IMG/VR virus record: IMGVR_UViG_3300028557_000216
Span: 1 to 21,761 of that record
Length of the DNA: 21,761 nucleotides
From: a virus
Reading direction: 5' to 3' (one strand)
The notes beneath the pieces are model-generated. The model was not told the DNA's origin, made no database searches, and worked only from the letters and a program-made list of their open reading frames with translations. Position 1 is the stretch's first letter, and each line of letters begins with the position of its first letter. The position numbers and the translations under genes are program-made. Of this stretch, positions 7,218-20,275 are shown piece by piece.

Positions 7218-7591
7218 TGGATATTAACGACATTACTAATAAGTTCAATAGTGTAGAGGAGTTGCAGGCTTATTGTAAAGCTCAGCATCTCACTATTGTT
7301 GATCTTACAAAGAAGCTAGAGGCCTTGAAGGTGGCTCCAGTTTCCAGCCAGCAATCCGTTATCATTGATCCTAAGGACTTTCTTGATAACGAAGAGGTTA
7401 TCTGTATGGTGCAAATCCATCGCCTTAGGGAGGCGGCAGAGAGCCGTGAGCTTACACTAGAAGAAGCTAAGAAAGTTGAAATCTACAATAAAATTCTTTT
7501 GGCCGCACGAGCCGCAAAGTCTAAGGATGTAAACGGGATTTCTAAAGATGTTCCCGACACAGAACTATTAAAGCAATTAACGGATAAATAA
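7217..7591 (+). CDS. Probable terminase small subunit, 124 aa
   Basis: It is coupled on both sides by TAATG overlaps and lies directly before the large subunit, the usual place for TerS, which recognises phage DNA and regulates packaging. An N-terminal helical section with a coiled-coil-like stretch (IVDLTKKLEAL) leads into DPKDFLDNEEVICMVQIHRL and LTLEEAKKVEIYNKILLAAR. A similar helical block occurs in small terminase-like proteins of other phages (from memory). No helix-turn-helix is obvious by eye. The call rests mainly on position and size. Confidence 0.6.
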   Translation: MDINDITNKFNSVEELQAYCKAQHLTIVDLTKKLEALKVAPVSSQQSVIIDPKDFLDNEEVICMVQIHRLREAAESRELTLEEAKKVEIYNKILLAARAAKSKDVNGISKDVPDTELLKQLTDK

Positions 7592-10107
7592 TGTCAGATA
7601 AAAAACTAGCAATTAAGCACGAGTTGTGGCGAAGGGGCGTTTTGTCCTGGAAGCTCCATAGCGTGCAACTAGAAATGTATGAAACCTATCGCAATGCAAA
7701 AGAGAACAGTACGCTTGTTTGGCTACTCGCCCGCCAAAGCGGCAAATGCCTCGCCGAAGGCACTATGGTATCGACTCCCTCTGGAGCCGTTGAGATTAAT
7801 AAGCTTAAGGCTGGCGACACTGTATACGGGTATAATAAAGATGGCTCTGTCTCCCCGACTAGGGTTGTTACGGTTCAACACCAAGGGACTAAAGAAGTTC
7901 ATGATTTGACAAACCACGGAAGAGTAATGGCGTCTGCAACTTCAGAACATCGCTGGGGAGGGTTTAATACCCTTCATAAAAAGGATCAAGAATTCACAAC
8001 CGAAGATCTAGTTTCTCGTGACTATAGAAAAATCCTTCGTAGATATCCCCAAGTTCAAATGGGGACAGTTAATGAGCCCCACGCATATGCTATTGGTGCT
8101 TTGTTGGGTGATGGATGTTCTAAGCAAAGGGTTGTTGCCGATATTCACATTTCGTCGGAAAACTCAATAATTCCTGCGGCGGTTGCTGATGTTTTGGGCT
8201 GCTCTGTTGTTAAACAAAGTCCCCAAAACCATACATGGTCAATTACTAATGAAACTGCTAATAGAAAACGTGGACGTGACTATAAGCCTGTTCAATGTAA
8301 TTATTATGACGACTGGATGCGAGATCGTTATGCACATGAAAAAATTATAAATCTCGATGTTATTAAAACGTGGGATCGTGAGTCGTGTCTGAAGCTATTG
8401 GCAGGACTTATTGATACCGACGGTGGTCTGATGGTCTGCGGTAGAAAGAAGAACGAACTTAAGCTACACTTCGCAAGTCAATCTAAATCAATCATCGACG
8501 CAATGCAGTACCTAACGCTATCGATGTTCCAGACTGAGTTTTGTTATACACTAGACGACCGTAAAAAATATAAAAACGGTCCCCTCCACGTTATATACCT
8601 AAATAATAATTTCTTTGTCAGTAAGATTCTAAAAGAAATATCCCCCTATATTAAAACCCCCAGAAAACAATGGAAACCCCAATACGAAGCTTTCGTTCCT
8701 CATAATCCGAATCCTGATTATTGCGGAGTCAAAAAAGGTAAAACGTATAAAGCTTCTTGTTGGGATATTCAGGTTGATAACGATACAAACCTTTATCTGT
8801 TAGCCAATGGTCTTGTAACACATAACAGCACCCTGATGGGAGCGCTTGCCCTAGAGCAAGCGTTATCAAAGCCCCATTCGGTAATCAAATTACTAACCGA
8901 TACAAAAATTCACGCAAAGACTATCTTTGACAAGATCTTTATTGAACTTCTTTCTGATTGTCCGGAAGACATTAGACCTTCTTATATTGAATCTCAATAT
9001 ACATATAAATTTCCTAATGGAAGTGAAATTCAGATGGCCGGAACGGATAGCGGCCACTATGAACGTCTTCGGGGGTCTAAAACCCACTTAGCTTTAATCG
9101 ACGAGGCCGGATTCTGTACAAATCTTGAGGACATTGTAAAGTCTGTATTGATTCCAACTACTACGCATACTGGCGGGAAGATTATCCTGGCGTCTACGCC
9201 TCCTGCTGATGGCCGCCATGATTTCTTGAAGTTCATCGAAGCGGCACAGTATAGAGGGAACCTAACAAAGAAAACTATTTATGATAACCCTCTTCTTAAT
9301 GAAGATCAGGTCCGTCGTATTGAAGATGAAATGGGTGGAAGAAATTCCGTTAAGTTCCGCCGTGAATACGAGTGTGAAATCGTCAAAGACGAGGATACTG
9401 TATTATTTCCAGAATTTAATGCGGAACTAAAGCCTAAAGTCTGTATTGAATGGAAGAAGCCTGCATATTACGATTCATACGTCGCTATGGATTTGGGTGG
9501 AAGAGATAGCACTGCGGTATTATTTGGCTATTACGATTTTAAAAAAGACAAGATTATTATTGATGATGAGATTGTTGTTCCTGGTCGTAAACTGAAACTG
9601 CCAGATCTTGTTAACGACATTATTAAAAAAGAAGAAGAGCTGTTTACAAATCCGGTAACAAATGAATTCATGGCTCCGTATAAGCGTGTTAGTGATATTA
9701 ATTACATTGTTACTGATGAGATTCGTCGCATGACGAATAATCGTTTAATGTTCGACGCCCCACGTAAAGACGATAAGATGGCGGCAGTTAATAACCTAAG
9801 AGTTCTTCTTGCTTCTGAGAAAATTATCATCAACCCTAAATGTGAAACTCTCATTAGACATTTAGAAAATGTAAAATGGGATACTGGATCTAAATCGACA
9901 AATTTTGCTCGTTCTCCAGATGATTCACATTACGATAGTTGTGATGCTCTTATCTATATGGTGCGCTCAATAAACTTTAATAAAAATCCATACCCTCCCG
10001 GTTATGGTTATGACCAAAGGGATCTATTCGTTTATAACAAAGATAGTTATTATAAGAACGATCCAATGCAAATTTACCAAAAGATTTTTAATCGGAAAAG
10101 GAAATAA
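7591..10107 (+). CDS. Terminase large subunit, intein-containing (838-aa precursor, 478 aa mature)
   Basis: The ATPase and nuclease motor packages DNA into the prohead. The Walker A motif ARQSGK|ST is split between K52 and S413 by an intein. After it come Walker B LALIDE (500-505), the coupling motif ASTPP (534-538) and the RNase-H-like nuclease with acidic residues at AMDLGG (D634), VTDE (D709) and HYDSCDAL (D782/D785). The extein length of 478 is normal for TerL. The ATG overlaps the TerS stop, and the portal follows after 5 nt. Without protein splicing the P-loop is broken, so activity should depend on intein excision. Confidence 0.95.
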   Translation: MSDKKLAIKHELWRRGVLSWKLHSVQLEMYETYRNAKENSTLVWLLARQSGKCLAEGTMVSTPSGAVEINKLKAGDTVYGYNKDGSVSPTRVVTVQHQGTKEVHDLTNHGRVMASATSEHRWGGFNTLHKKDQEFTTEDLVSRDYRKILRRYPQVQMGTVNEPHAYAIGALLGDGCSKQRVVADIHISSENSIIPAAVADVLGCSVVKQSPQNHTWSITNETANRKRGRDYKPVQCNYYDDWMRDRYAHEKIINLDVIKTWDRESCLKLLAGLIDTDGGLMVCGRKKNELKLHFASQSKSIIDAMQYLTLSMFQTEFCYTLDDRKKYKNGPLHVIYLNNNFFVSKILKEISPYIKTPRKQWKPQYEAFVPHNPNPDYCGVKKGKTYKASCWDIQVDNDTNLYLLANGLVTHNSTLMGALALEQALSKPHSVIKLLTDTKIHAKTIFDKIFIELLSDCPEDIRPSYIESQYTYKFPNGSEIQMAGTDSGHYERLRGSKTHLALIDEAGFCTNLEDIVKSVLIPTTTHTGGKIILASTPPADGRHDFLKFIEAAQYRGNLTKKTIYDNPLLNEDQVRRIEDEMGGRNSVKFRREYECEIVKDEDTVLFPEFNAELKPKVCIEWKKPAYYDSYVAMDLGGRDSTAVLFGYYDFKKDKIIIDDEIVVPGRKLKLPDLVNDIIKKEEELFTNPVTNEFMAPYKRVSDINYIVTDEIRRMTNNRLMFDAPRKDDKMAAVNNLRVLLASEKIIINPKCETLIRHLENVKWDTGSKSTNFARSPDDSHYDSCDALIYMVRSINFNKNPYPPGYGYDQRDLFVYNKDSYYKNDPMQIYQKIFNRKRK
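7747..8826 (+). mobile_element. LAGLIDADG intein in terminase Walker A
   Basis: The 360-residue intein starts at Cys53 (CLAEGTMVSTPSG) and ends LLANGLVTHN, followed by Ser as +1 residue. Splicing block A, block B (ATSEH, T-x2-H), a penultimate His and a terminal Asn are all present, so it should splice. Two dodecapeptides, AIGALLGDG (167-175) and LLAGLIDTDGG (268-278), mark a homing endonuclease of the LAGLIDADG class. Insertion between the Lys and Ser of the P-loop targets one of the most conserved sites of the gene, typical of inteins. Confidence 0.93.
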
Positions 10108-16122: not shown

Positions 16123-18781
16123 ATGTCTACTTCAGTTAATACTTTTGGTACGCCAAACAATACGGTTGGCAACCTTAACGGCCTCTTTAGTTAATTTGAA
16201 GAGGTCGGGTAAACCCCCGACAAGCGAAAGCTTGTAAAACTGCGTGAATTGCTGGAAATCCTACGGGACAATCAGCAGCCAAGGCTCTCTAGAAGAGCAA
16301 GGTCCAGAGACTAAAAATTTAGAATAATCCTGATCGCATAGCGAGTTGGAGAATAAAATGCTTAATAAAGATAAAAGAAGTCTTATCCTATCCATGGTTT
16401 TGGGAGACGGATGTCTGCACTATATAAAAAATGCGGGATCAGTCTATGGCGGTCTTTCGATTGACCACGGAACTTCCCAAGCCGATTATGTTGCCTGGAA
16501 AGCTCAAATCGTTTCATCCATAACTGGTAGAAACGTTAAAGTTAGACAAGGACATAAAGGGAAATCTGTACAATTCCAAGTTTGTTGGAAGCGTCTCAGA
16601 GCATGGAGAAAGTTTACATATCCCAATGGAAAAAAGGAGATTATAAAAATCCTTCCTTTTTTAAAGCATCCGGAGTTTGCCGCAGCAGTGTGGCTTATGG
16701 ATGACGGATATGTTGAGACTAGTGGATTCCAAATGATCCATGGAGTAAAGACCACGAAGAGTGCAAGGTTTAGAATCTTTACATATAGCGAATCTATTTC
16801 AGATCATGATGTATTAATCAAATGGTTTGAAACACAGCTTGGAGTAAAGCCCAAAGTTAGGTTTATGAATGATAAAAGGACATCTAAAACCTATCCATTC
16901 CTAGCCTTTACGGAAAAAGACTCCTTAAAGATATGGCATACAATCCGAGACACGGTTCTTGGACTTAAAAGTATGCAACATAAATTTAGATATATTGAGC
17001 AAGTTTATCAATTCAGAATTTTACAGCGCGCGGCTGGCAATAAGCCAGATGATATAGTCCGACACTCCAAGTAATTGGAGCAAACAGTTCGAAAGAAACT
17101 TATGCGAATAAGCTTAAAGAACTTATTCCGGATGGCGTAAAGCTAGTAAATCGCGTGGCATTCATGGAGAAATCCAAGATGCCTGGCAATTTGTACCATC
17201 AGCCAGTTATTTTGGGGATGGAGCACGGTAAAGTTTAATGCCGTGCTAATAAATTGGTGAAAAAACTTGGAAAGCTAAGTTAGATGTGATAGGATAGATA
17301 TATGAGATACGGAATAATCTACAAAATTAAGAATAATGTGAACGGAAAAGAGTATGTTGGTCAAACAACTGGCTCAGTTTCTCGTCGCTTTAATTCTCAT
17401 TGTGTAGAAAAACGTAATCGTCATATTTCTAATGCTATCCGAAGCTATGGAAAAGAAAACTTTACTGTTGGGGAAATCTGTAAAAATACAGGCAGGAGAA
17501 AAAGTAGCTTAGGGTGGAAGTTTTTCTATCTATCTGAATATGCCAATCAGAGCGGAAGTGTTGGACTTAAAAGTTCTTCACACGCGCAACGACTAGGAAT
17601 TGAACCCGCGAAAGCGGAATAGAATATTCCCACGAGTCACCGACAGAAGCTCATGGCTTCTGAAAAGATAGTCTGAACTTATAGGAAACTATAAGAAGTA
17701 GGGGATAAAGAGCCCTTACGATAACAAAATGGTTACTTTCGCCGCTTCTGACGAAGATGCGTTCAACCTTAACCCCGCCGTCGCTGGCGTAATCAAGGAC
17801 GCTCAGATCCGTGGGAACCCTATCCTCATGCGTTCTGTCCTTGGTTATTCTGCCGCTTCGCGTGCTTCACAAGGTACGGCTCAAGCCTTCATGGACGCCA
17901 CCAAGTATCTTGTAGCGAACATGCTCCGTTCACTAGCCAAAAAGCTAGAGATCGAAATGTTCTACGGTCAAGTTGGTTACGCCACCGTTGCTAGCGTCTC
18001 TGCTGCTGATATCACGATCACCACTGCCGAGTGGGCTCCTGGTATCTGGGCCGGTGCTGAGAACATGCCTATCGAAATTCGTGATGCCTCTGGTGCCGTT
18101 TCTCGCGGAGAATTCTCTGTTAAGAACGTCAACATGGACACTCGCGTAGTTACCCTTAAGACCTCTGCTGGTGCCGCTGGCGTAGTTGCCACCGACGTAA
18201 TCTGGCACAAAGGCGCTTACGGTAACGAATTCCCTGGCGTACATAAGATCCTAACCTCAACTGGTACGTTGTTCAACATCGACACCGCTACCTACAACCT
18301 CTTCAAGGGTAACGAATACTCTGCTAGCTCTGGCGCTCTTAGCTTCCCCAAGCTTAACAACGCCGTTGCTCGTGCAGTAGAAAAGGGCCTTGACAGCAAA
18401 GTAATTTGCTACGTCAACCCCCGTACCTGGAGTTCACTCCTTTCCGACCAAGCGGCTCTCCGTAAGTATGATTCGTCATACAGCGCTGCTAAAGTTGAGA
18501 ACGGTAGCAAGAGCATCCTCTTCCATTCACAGAATGGTGACATTGAAATCGAACCCTCGATCTATGTCAAAGAAGGCTACTCTTACCTCCTAAGCCTCGA
18601 TGACTGGAGCCGTGTCGGTAGTTCTGACATGACCTTCACTCTTCCCGGCCAAAAAGACGAGTTCTTCCGCCATCTCTCTGAGAGCGCCGGATTTGAGCTT
18701 CGCCTTTGGAGCGATCAGGCCCTCTTCTGCTCCGCTCCTGGTAAGAGCACGCTCATCTACGCAATTGTTAACCCCGTATAA
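16123..18781 (+). CDS. Major capsid protein, split by two group I introns (417 aa after splicing)
   Basis: Three exons: 16123-16188, 17092-17229 and 17732-18781. Joining them gives MSTSVNTFGT...NGLF | KETYANKLKELIPDG...GMEHG | VTFAASDEDAFNLNPAV and onward, uninterrupted to the stop. Both junctions fall between codons. The order scaffold/decoration/this gene/terminator and the content (LYHQPVILGMEHG, NMLRSLAKKLEIEMFYGQ, CYVNPRTWSSLLSDQ) support a major capsid protein, possibly of the N4 gp56-like family (uncertain). Codons are strongly C-ending, unlike the introns. AGGAG lies 10 nt before the ATG. The ATG at 17729 spans the intron 2 end, so the 350-codon frame starting there is not the true protein. 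Confidence 0.88.
16189..17091 (+). mobile_element. Group I intron 1 in the capsid gene (903 nt)
   Basis: P1: exon end CCTCTTT (16182-16188) pairs with GAAGAGG (16198-16204), with U.G at the splice site. P2 is GTCGGG/CCCGAC (16204-16221); CAAGC-GAAA-GCTTG follows. Core elements: P AATTGCTGGAAATCC (16247), Q AATCAGCAGCC (16270), R CCAGAGACTAAA (16304), S GATATAGTCC (17051). GACTA/TAGTC forms P7. P9 is CTCCAA/TTGGAG (17065-17080). The intron ends in G17091. P10 could use AAA of exon 2 with TTT at 16195-16197. The endonuclease gene sits between R and S (P8 region). Confidence 0.9.
16358..17074 (+). CDS. LAGLIDADG homing endonuclease in intron 1, 238 aa
   Basis: I start at the ATG at 16358 with TTGGAG 6 nt upstream; an in-frame TTG at 16346 lies inside that site. 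The two LAGLIDADG dodecapeptides are LILSMVLGDG (9-18) and AAAVWLMDDGY (108-118), the LAGLIDADG_2 type known from phage and organelle introns. The spacing of about 100 residues is right for a single-chain enzyme. The last ~8 codons (PDDIVRHSK) overlap the S element of the intron core, so ORF and ribozyme share bases. It should cut intronless capsid genes to spread the intron. Confidence 0.9.
   Translation: MLNKDKRSLILSMVLGDGCLHYIKNAGSVYGGLSIDHGTSQADYVAWKAQIVSSITGRNVKVRQGHKGKSVQFQVCWKRLRAWRKFTYPNGKKEIIKILPFLKHPEFAAAVWLMDDGYVETSGFQMIHGVKTTKSARFRIFTYSESISDHDVLIKWFETQLGVKPKVRFMNDKRTSKTYPFLAFTEKDSLKIWHTIRDTVLGLKSMQHKFRYIEQVYQFRILQRAAGNKPDDIVRHSK
17230..17731 (+). mobile_element. Group I intron 2 in the capsid gene (502 nt)
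   Basis: P1: exon GCACGGT (17223-17229) pairs with GCCGTGC (17240-17246), all seven positions with U.G at the cut. P10: exon 3 GTTA (17732-17735) pairs with TAAT just before the guide. R CAACGACTAGG (17587-17597) and S AAGATAGTCTGAAC (17665-17678) form P7 through GACTA/TAGTC and match the td-like (group IA2) pattern. Between them are CCGC-GAAA-GCGG, GGAATA/TATTCC and AGAAGC/GCTTCT. P9 CTTATAG-GAAA-CTATAAG follows. The intron ends in G17731. P and Q are not resolved. Confidence 0.88.
17302..17622 (+). CDS. Short GIY-YIG homing endonuclease in intron 2, 106 aa (probably internally deleted)
   Basis: AGGA lies about 7 nt before the ATG. GIIYKI (4-9), EYVGQTT (17-23), RRFNSHC and AIRSYGKENFTVGEI form the GIY-YIG catalytic core. 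At residues ~60-76, CKNTGRRKSSLGWKFFYL resembles the end of an IENR1-type DNA-binding module. I-TevI-like enzymes are about 245 aa, so the linker and most of the DNA-binding part are missing; activity is doubtful. The final ~13 codons overlap the R element of the intron, like the td intron arrangement with the ORF inserted in the P6 loop. Confidence 0.82.
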   Translation: MRYGIIYKIKNNVNGKEYVGQTTGSVSRRFNSHCVEKRNRHISNAIRSYGKENFTVGEICKNTGRRKSSLGWKFFYLSEYANQSGSVGLKSSSHAQRLGIEPAKAE

Positions 18782-18889: not shown

Positions 18890-20275
18890 ATGAAAAATAA
18901 AATTGATAAATCAAAGCCTAGGGATTGGCTTCCCGAGAATGTCATTGTCCATTCTTCTACAGATCTTTCAGCCCCAAAAACTAAGAAACAAAAATTCATT
19001 GACATTTTGTACGGTGAGTTTGAAACTTCCCTTAAATATCTTCAAATTGCGGCGCAAAGCACGCATCCCGATAGGAAAAACGAAAACCGCACCAAAACGA
19101 TGCTTTCTAAATACGGAGTAGTTAATAATTCCCAACTTCCGGAATACAAAGAGAAGTTTCGTTCCACTATGCTGTCGCGTTATGGTGTTGAGAACGCTTT
19201 AAAGAGTCCTGAGCTTCGTGATAAAGTGAAGAAGACAAATGTGTCCCGTTATGGGGCTGATTGGAAGCATGTTCAGACTGAAAAGGCACGCGCCGGGCTT
19301 CTTAAGAAATACGGAGTTAATAATCCGGGCAAAATTAATGCAAGGCCGGTGTTTTCGGGCAAAAATGCGCACGAAATTTCGAAAGAAAAGGATGTCCCAG
19401 TTTGTCTTATTTATCGTTATTTAAAAGAGCATGGAATTGAAGCCACAGAAGATTGGATTGAGAATCATAAATCGTACAAATCAATCCTAGAAACGCAATT
19501 CCAAAAGACCATAGAAAATCTTCCATCTTTTAATAAAAAGATTTGCGATGATCTGAAATACAAGCCGGACTTTAAACTATCAGAGGATACATATATTGAC
19601 GTTGATGGATTAATTTACCATTCAGATTTATACAAGAAAGATAATAAATATCACATTAATAAACGAATTGATTATGAAAATGTTGGATTGCGGCTTCTAC
19701 AATTTCGACAAGACGAGATTAAAGAACGCCCCCTTATTATTCAAAGCATGATTGGTAATATCAAGAAATCGAATACAAGAATCTTTGCTCGAAAATGCTC
19801 TCTTCAAGAAATCGAGTTTAAAGAAGCCTCAGAATTCCTAGAAAGGACTCACTTGATGGGGAAAGGTCCAGCTTCCAGAGCCCTCGGTCTTTTCTATGAT
19901 AATAAACTCGTTTCTGTCATGACTTTTAAAGAAACAAAAACGGGCTCTGAGATTGTTCGTTATTCAAATGAACTTAATACGTCCATTATTGGTGGCTTTT
20001 CTAAGCTCTGCAAGTTTTTAGAGGCTTTTGGTGGAGAAATCGTCTCATTTGTTGACCTTCGCTACGCCACCGGAGAGTCTTTAGAAAAGAACGCATTTAA
20101 ACGCTCTGGGACCACTCTTGGGTGGAAATGGACAGATGGGGTAAAGACCTTTAATAGACTGTATTGTAAGGCTAATATGGACGCCAGGGGGCTTTCCGAG
20201 AAAGAATACGCTAAAGAGTTAGGACTTTATAAGATATACGATGCCGGTCAGGCTAAATATGTAAAAACGTTATAG
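18890..20275 (+). CDS. Free-standing VSR/EDxHD-like homing endonuclease, 461 aa
   Basis: Three parts are visible. Residues ~65-150 carry four repeats of a 'KYGVxN...' unit (YG at 75, 98, 121 and 141), as in the DNA-binding regions of phage endonucleases. Residues ~195-280 are a PD-(D/E)XK/VSR-like nuclease: LETQFQ, KPDFKL, YIDVDGLIYHS, KYHINKR and LLQFRQDEI. Residues ~296-435 match a C-terminal module often fused to such nucleases (ARKCSLQEI, FLERTHLMGKG, IIGGFSKLCKFLE, GWKWTD). It resembles the I-Bth0305I class (from memory). It has its own sigma70 promoter, lies between a terminator and a structural gene and has no Shine-Dalgarno. It probably homes into a nearby gene. Confidence 0.85.
   Translation: MKNKIDKSKPRDWLPENVIVHSSTDLSAPKTKKQKFIDILYGEFETSLKYLQIAAQSTHPDRKNENRTKTMLSKYGVVNNSQLPEYKEKFRSTMLSRYGVENALKSPELRDKVKKTNVSRYGADWKHVQTEKARAGLLKKYGVNNPGKINARPVFSGKNAHEISKEKDVPVCLIYRYLKEHGIEATEDWIENHKSYKSILETQFQKTIENLPSFNKKICDDLKYKPDFKLSEDTYIDVDGLIYHSDLYKKDNKYHINKRIDYENVGLRLLQFRQDEIKERPLIIQSMIGNIKKSNTRIFARKCSLQEIEFKEASEFLERTHLMGKGPASRALGLFYDNKLVSVMTFKETKTGSEIVRYSNELNTSIIGGFSKLCKFLEAFGGEIVSFVDLRYATGESLEKNAFKRSGTTLGWKWTDGVKTFNRLYCKANMDARGLSEKEYAKELGLYKIYDAGQAKYVKTL

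Follow-up and report, generated by a model that had tools for sequence, protein, structure and literature searches.

Analysis of a 21,761-base IMG/VR virus record, a metagenomic contig treated over its full length as the window, indicated that its capsid gene would be transcribed as a precursor RNA with two group I introns of different families, yielding a 417-amino-acid protein after self-splicing. Judged from the sequence, we give this reading a probability of about 0.94.

Exons, splice boundaries and gene product

Joining exons 1 to 3 (Table 1) produced a 417-aa frame with no internal stops. The boundaries at 22.0 and 68.0 (codon.phase) were found again, with intron lengths of 903 and 502 nt, by an independent spliced-profile search in which site and phase had been left free. 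A sequence-only reading had proposed that two different group I introns split the gene into three exons, and had placed both introns at base level from the U.G pair in P1, the terminal G and codon-exact joins. Both proposals held: the two ribozymes belong to different families, and all three base-level marks were confirmed, together with P10 pairings and a P3/P7 core. The exon of only 66 nt that it had emphasized does have this length. It represents just the coding part of the first exon and no internal micro-exon, the internal exon being 138 nt long.

Table 1 Features of the interrupted capsid gene in the window (positions count from the first base).
Feature	Positions	Strand	Evidence
AGGAG ribosome-binding site ahead of the capsid start codon	16108..16112	+	sequence
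Exon 1, coding part, 22 codons, 3′ end ...CTC TTT	16123..16188	+	gapless alignment to intronless relatives; spliced search
P1 of intron 1: exon CGGCCTCTTT with guide GAAGAGGTCG, U16188.G16198	16179..16207	+	sequence pairing
Group I intron 1, 903 nt, family A, site 22.0	16189..17091	+	RF00028 E 4.1e-8; S-PM2 psbA intron match; same-site introns L034, L038
Intron 1 core, P3 to 5′ strand of P7, common to the S-PM2 psbA intron	16245..16313	+	RF00028; sequence match
LAGLIDADG endonuclease of intron 1 (predicted), 238 aa; 3′ end overlaps P8, P7 and P9	16358..17074	+	PF03161 E 3e-12
Intron 1 P8 hairpin, P7 3′ strand (GATATAGTC 17051-17059), P9 hairpin	17034..17080	+	sequence; RF00028 partial match 16948-17081
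Exon 2, 46 codons, 138 nt, sole internal exon of the window	17092..17229	+	alignment; spliced search
P1 of intron 2: exon GCACGGT with guide GCCGTGC, U17229.G17240	17223..17246	+	sequence pairing
Group I intron 2, 502 nt, family C, IA-type, site 68.0	17230..17731	+	RF00028 E 5.7e-5; covariation; streptococcal phage matches
P10 of intron 2: GTTA 17732-17735 with TAAT 17236-17239		+	sequence pairing
Intron 2 P3: TTGGTGA 17254-17260 with TCACCGA 17637-17643	17254..17643	+	both-sided changes in 5/7 pairs
GIY-YIG frame of intron 2, 106 aa	17302..17622	+	PF01541 E 2.7e-6; alignment
Intron 2 P7: GACTA 17591-17595 with TAGTC 17669-17673; P7.1 and P7.1a between	17591..17673	+	covariation
Exon 3, codons 69-417 and stop	17732..18781	+	ORF call; alignment; spliced search

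The alignment suggested alongside that reading, of the spliced protein with intronless relatives, was gapless through residues 22/23 and 68/69 in all 24 IMG/VR sequences compared, and residues 18–100 showed zero gaps across them. Because these 24 relatives align without gaps through both joins, relatives lacking the exon 1 or exon 2 residues, which would speak against a three-exon gene, were not seen. An exact search of viral contigs for the spliced exon 1-2 junction, as expected of cDNA, gave no match.

As anticipated from the sequence alone, a standard ORF call started at 17729 and returned a 350-codon frame that loses the first 68 residues. This is precisely the call expected if the gene were broken or began at 17729, with the 350-codon frame as the functional capsid protein and remnants upstream. 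We consider such a gene very improbable, since ATG 17729-17731 constitutes the last bases of intron 2, so that the frame begins on the intron's own ATG, 3 nt before exon 3. In addition, residues 18–68 are conserved in nearly all relatives, the upstream pieces retain intact frames in exact codon phase, and the same architecture occurs at other sites in other relatives. Because the window is a metagenomic contig, a chimeric assembly joining endonuclease or intron DNA into the capsid gene was also considered. Its likelihood is close to nil, as a second, 70-kb contig (L003) is 99.97% identical to the window over 10,670 bases with an identical two-intron layout, and precise introns, each having a P1 and a P10 of its own, are present in about 20 further contigs.

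The protein matched PHROG 14242 (major head protein, E 1.8e-12); its nearest cultured relative is 29% identical. An AlphaFold model of the intronless relative L004 (pLDDT 66, pTM 0.65, low for residues 54–117) found phage capsids and encapsulins of the HK97 fold as its best PDB matches (top E 3.7e-7), and supports the fold class only because the TM-scores are low (0.2–0.35). On these grounds, the gene product is predicted to be the HK97-fold major capsid protein of an uncultured tailed phage. Two genome-collection matches were discarded as a clue to the host, as they are probably binned virus contigs.

Ribozyme structure and intron-encoded endonucleases

The group I covariance search proposed as a further check matched Rfam RF00028 in both introns (43.1 bits for intron 1 and 32.6 bits for intron 2). 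Each match lies below the gathering score of 50, probably because the endonuclease frames interrupt the ribozyme cores. Two of Rfam's placements fell inside these frames, namely 16345-16414 for the 3′ half of intron 1 and 17421-17500 for the 5′ half of intron 2; both were discarded, and same-site introns were compared in their place.

P1 comprises 9 bp in intron 1 and 7 bp in intron 2, each plus the U.G pair, and for either intron its own donor was the single best partner of the guide among 93 exon Ts. P10 measures 3 bp and 4 bp, respectively; across 37 introns of the family it averaged 4.2 bp, compared to 0.66 bp when paired with the exon starts of other sites. Both introns end in G (G17091 and G17731). 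Covariation was assessed for intron 2, using P3, P7, P7.1, P7.1a, P8, P9, and P9.1 in eight ORF-trimmed family members. In these, 91% of cells were paired, versus 32–46% with the partner slid, and 23 pairs had changed on both sides, including a compensatory exchange of the P7 strands GACUA/UAGUC for GCAUA/UAUGC in relatives. P7.1/P7.1a, which likewise covaries, follows the 5′ strand of P7 and precedes the 3′ strand of P3, the place of the P7.1/P7.2 extension typical of subgroup IA, and intron 2 is accordingly of IA type. The fold of intron 1, which has three same-site members, is based on RF00028 and the S-PM2 match. Both introns would be capable of guanosine-initiated self-removal, with the 5′ site set by P1 and the 3′ site by P10. 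An in-frame stop follows the 5′ splice site after 6 nt in intron 1 and 9 nt in intron 2, so that a ribosome on unspliced RNA would halt before the ribozyme and release only a short peptide.

The sequence-only reading had assigned unrelated endonuclease classes, LAGLIDADG and GIY-YIG, to the two introns. Profile matches bear out both classes; the two frames differ in probable activity. The intron 1 frame matched LAGLIDADG_2 (PF03161) with 47.2 bits against a cut-off of 25, contains both motifs (LGDGCLHY and LMDDGYVE), which are conserved among same-site relatives, and shares 56–58% identity with its counterparts in the L038 and L034 introns at this site. This endonuclease is apparently intact, and intron 1 is probably still mobile by means of it. 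The intron 2 frame encodes 106 aa, compared to about 220 aa in four full-length relatives. It kept the GIY and YIG motifs, but about 115 residues following residue 58 are deleted in frame, among them the region expected to hold the catalytic glutamate, leaving it without a complete nuclease domain (catalytic Glu and DNA-binding part). The GIY-YIG enzyme is therefore probably inactive, and intron 2 has the look of a longer-established insertion with a decayed enzyme. In L039 and L096, the same intron (68.0) occurs entirely without a frame. Homing introns are known to pass through a cycle of gain, decay and loss, and the frame states of the 68.0 intron fit this cycle.

Further elements resembling mobile DNA were observed in the window. 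The TerL gene (7591-10107) carries an intein-like insert of about 360 aa at the Walker A P-loop (QSGK/CLAEG...VTHN/STLMG, with slashes at the insert boundaries), with a weak Hint_2 match; TerL is uninterrupted at this position in nine relatives. Directly 3′ of the capsid gene lies a free-standing homing endonuclease-like gene (18890-20275; PHROG 3339, DUF7487), and distant versions of it are found shortly past the capsid gene in L038, L039, L041, L031, and L035.

Introns at the 5′ end of related capsid genes

To collect relatives, viral contigs were scanned three times, the queries being the whole protein, exon 3 and the C-terminal part; where there were 114 and 261 matches, the best 80 of each were listed, so that rarer arrangements may have escaped notice. 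Because the sources are metagenomic contigs, all counts refer to contig types and not to independent events. Among the matches listed, 20 of 78 distinct exon-3 types carried introns, 44 altogether, and further introns come from L163, L170, L174, and L182; roughly one in four of the listed capsid genes of relatives (about 24 genes) is intron-bearing. At least 17 insertion sites were identified (22.0, 25.1, 35.0, 50.0, 54.0, 55.2, 58.0, 60.0, 62.2, 64.0, 68.0, 68.2, 78.1, 80.2, 87.0, 93.2, and, in L174, 60.2), and all lie in codons 22–93 of 417, that is, in the first ~280 nt. No introns were found in codons 94–417 among the matches listed. Likewise, 13 of 13 Rfam group I matches in 19 related records (475 kb) fell within the capsid gene. 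Assuming that a long helix at 117–148 of the L004 model corresponds to the HK97 spine helix, all sites would precede this helix, and the region that they occupy would correspond to the N-arm and E-loop.

Two or more introns were present in 15 of the 20 intron-bearing genes, with a maximum of four (L115). The shortest internal exons measure 13 nt (L115), 14 and 18 nt (L022), 16 nt (L042), and 18 nt (L031), followed by 24 nt (L039, L096) and 30 and 42 nt (L035-L037); in L022, the upstream intron's P10 and the downstream intron's P1 together take up nearly all of the 14-nt exon. The main allele at almost all sites meets an in-frame stop at most 11 nt past the 5′ splice site, whereas 23% of random intron positions have a stop within three codons. 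P1 is weak at 35.0, 50.0, 55.2, 62.2, 78.1, and 80.2. HNH-type frames, recognized by eye in L031:371-1219 (site 64.0) and L096:1812-2681 (site 60.0), bring all three endonuclease classes into the hotspot.

Several cases were set apart. The ORF-less intron at site 54.0 of L052 (L052:4811-5094) would end in A instead of G and was retained as doubtful. L170:5992-7465 is a 1.5-kb insert in the capsid gene with GIY-YIG-like and LAGLIDADG-like frames, representing one intron or two, and its site was left out of the site count. Apparent introns at codons 110–119 and in L095 and L106 in the spliced search were indel alignment artefacts, as plain tblastn runs through them.

A strict BLAST threshold grouped the introns into three families, with a few singles remaining. 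Family A occupies 22.0, family B 58.0, 60.0, 62.2, and 64.0, and family C 35.0, 54.0, 55.2, 68.0, 68.2, 78.1, 80.2, 87.0, and 93.2, with links that partly run via shared endonuclease frames; the window carries one intron each of families A and C. Intron presence changed at least 12 times on the exon-3 tree, with the number of changes at most sites roughly equal to the number of occurrences. For example, L038 (introns at 22 and 58) and L039 (50, 60, and 68) are 95.8% identical in exon 3 and have no intron in common, while L041, 90.8% identical to L038, has introns at 64 and 78. Conversely, identity between L039 and L096 reaches 98–100% in their 68.0 introns and only 74% in exon 3, which points to recent lateral movement. 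We read the 5′ end of the capsid gene as a probable homing hotspot with fast turnover, in which introns would be gained and lost quickly enough for near-identical alleles to share none.

Why the introns gather at the 5′ end was weighed against three explanations. Homing targets usually lie in conserved DNA, and clustering might merely mirror the most conserved part of the gene. Pairwise identity at the sites is indeed slightly above the gene mean (0.725 vs 0.660), but nt 400–450 and 500–550 are equally or more conserved and intron-free, and nt 60–290 hold 29% of the comparably conserved positions, yet 16 of 16 tested sites. The p-value attached to this comparison assumes that sites are independent and serves as a guide only. 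Sequence conservation alone fails to account for the clustering, and we regard this explanation as unlikely.

The simplest alternative is local spread: a few introns entered and moved to similar neighbouring sites, aided by co-conversion, without selection on position. In line with this, the family B sites are adjacent, L022 and L031 each carry this family twice within a single gene, and the L115 introns at 55.2 (L115:4175-4422) and 80.2 (L115:4775-5680) have a common donor, ACCT, and guide, AGGGTCC, which suggests local jumping. Against it stands the convergence of three ribozyme families and three endonuclease classes on one 215-nt stretch. A purely historical origin is a serious possibility, if at somewhat less than even odds.

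A third and tentative proposal regards the 5′ fifth of the gene as an arena, in which neighbouring sites are contested by unrelated group I introns and internal exons may have shrunk to about one P10 plus one P1 (13–18 nt). Introns would persist only upstream of the capsid core. One reason may be that a failed splice there releases a harmless short peptide and not a truncated subunit able to poison assembly; another, that splicing has to be coupled to the first ribosomes.

Significance and relation to known phage introns

The capsid gene is the most intron-laden gene seen in these genomes. Splicing must nevertheless be efficient, given the very large quantities of capsid protein produced late in infection. 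The 13–18 nt internal exons of the relatives probe the minimum exon between two group I ribozymes and the enforcement of splicing order, and the allele series, with exons 91–96% identical and disjoint intron sets, offers a natural experiment on how introns are gained, compete and are lost. Capsid genes of this type are cut short or split by gene callers, and marker-gene surveys of viruses are biased as a result.

Sequence similarity links both introns to elements in cultured phages. A 69-nt core resembling that of intron 1 (78% identity) is found in the psbA intron of Synechococcus phage S-PM2, an intron that sits in a different host gene and has different contents. The 3′ domain of intron 2 resembles sequences that interrupt the terL and portal genes of streptococcal phages (91–93% identity over ~70 nt up to the 3′ boundary); here too the host genes are different, and the 5′ domains are not alike at the search sensitivity used.

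Interrupted capsid genes have precedents. In mycobacteriophage LittleE, the major capsid gene holds a probable group I intron bearing a LAGLIDADG-like frame, and splicing was shown by RT-PCR and the protein N-terminus (PMC3706429). LittleE has one intron at one site with the frame on the opposite strand, whereas here two introns of different families and a 17-site hotspot in relatives are known from sequence. A capsid group I intron of lactococcal phage Tuc2009 is cited in PMC3706429 and two late-gene group I introns of Lactobacillus phage JCL1032 in PMC6669764; these are likewise group I introns of phage late genes, one per gene according to the citing texts.

Several group I introns in one phage gene are likewise known from Twort orf142 and the Bastillevirinae, where they are mostly IA-like and accompanied by a small internal exon and exon skipping (PMC11878797). 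They reside mainly in polymerase, terminase and nucleotide genes, in contrast to the capsid gene and the 13–18 nt internal exons of the relatives described here. The authors of that study ask why introns colonise only such core genes, and the hotspot counters the view that phage introns lie chiefly in genes of DNA and nucleotide metabolism (PMC11878797). Jug and crAss-like gut phages contain many group I introns and inteins, with splicing partly confirmed by metatranscriptomes (PMC12363816); their introns are spread across many genes, whereas here all 13 Rfam matches from 19 contigs fall in one. Two introns in a phage capsid gene are thus of a kind already known, to which the relatives add an unusually dense hotspot with apparently fast turnover.
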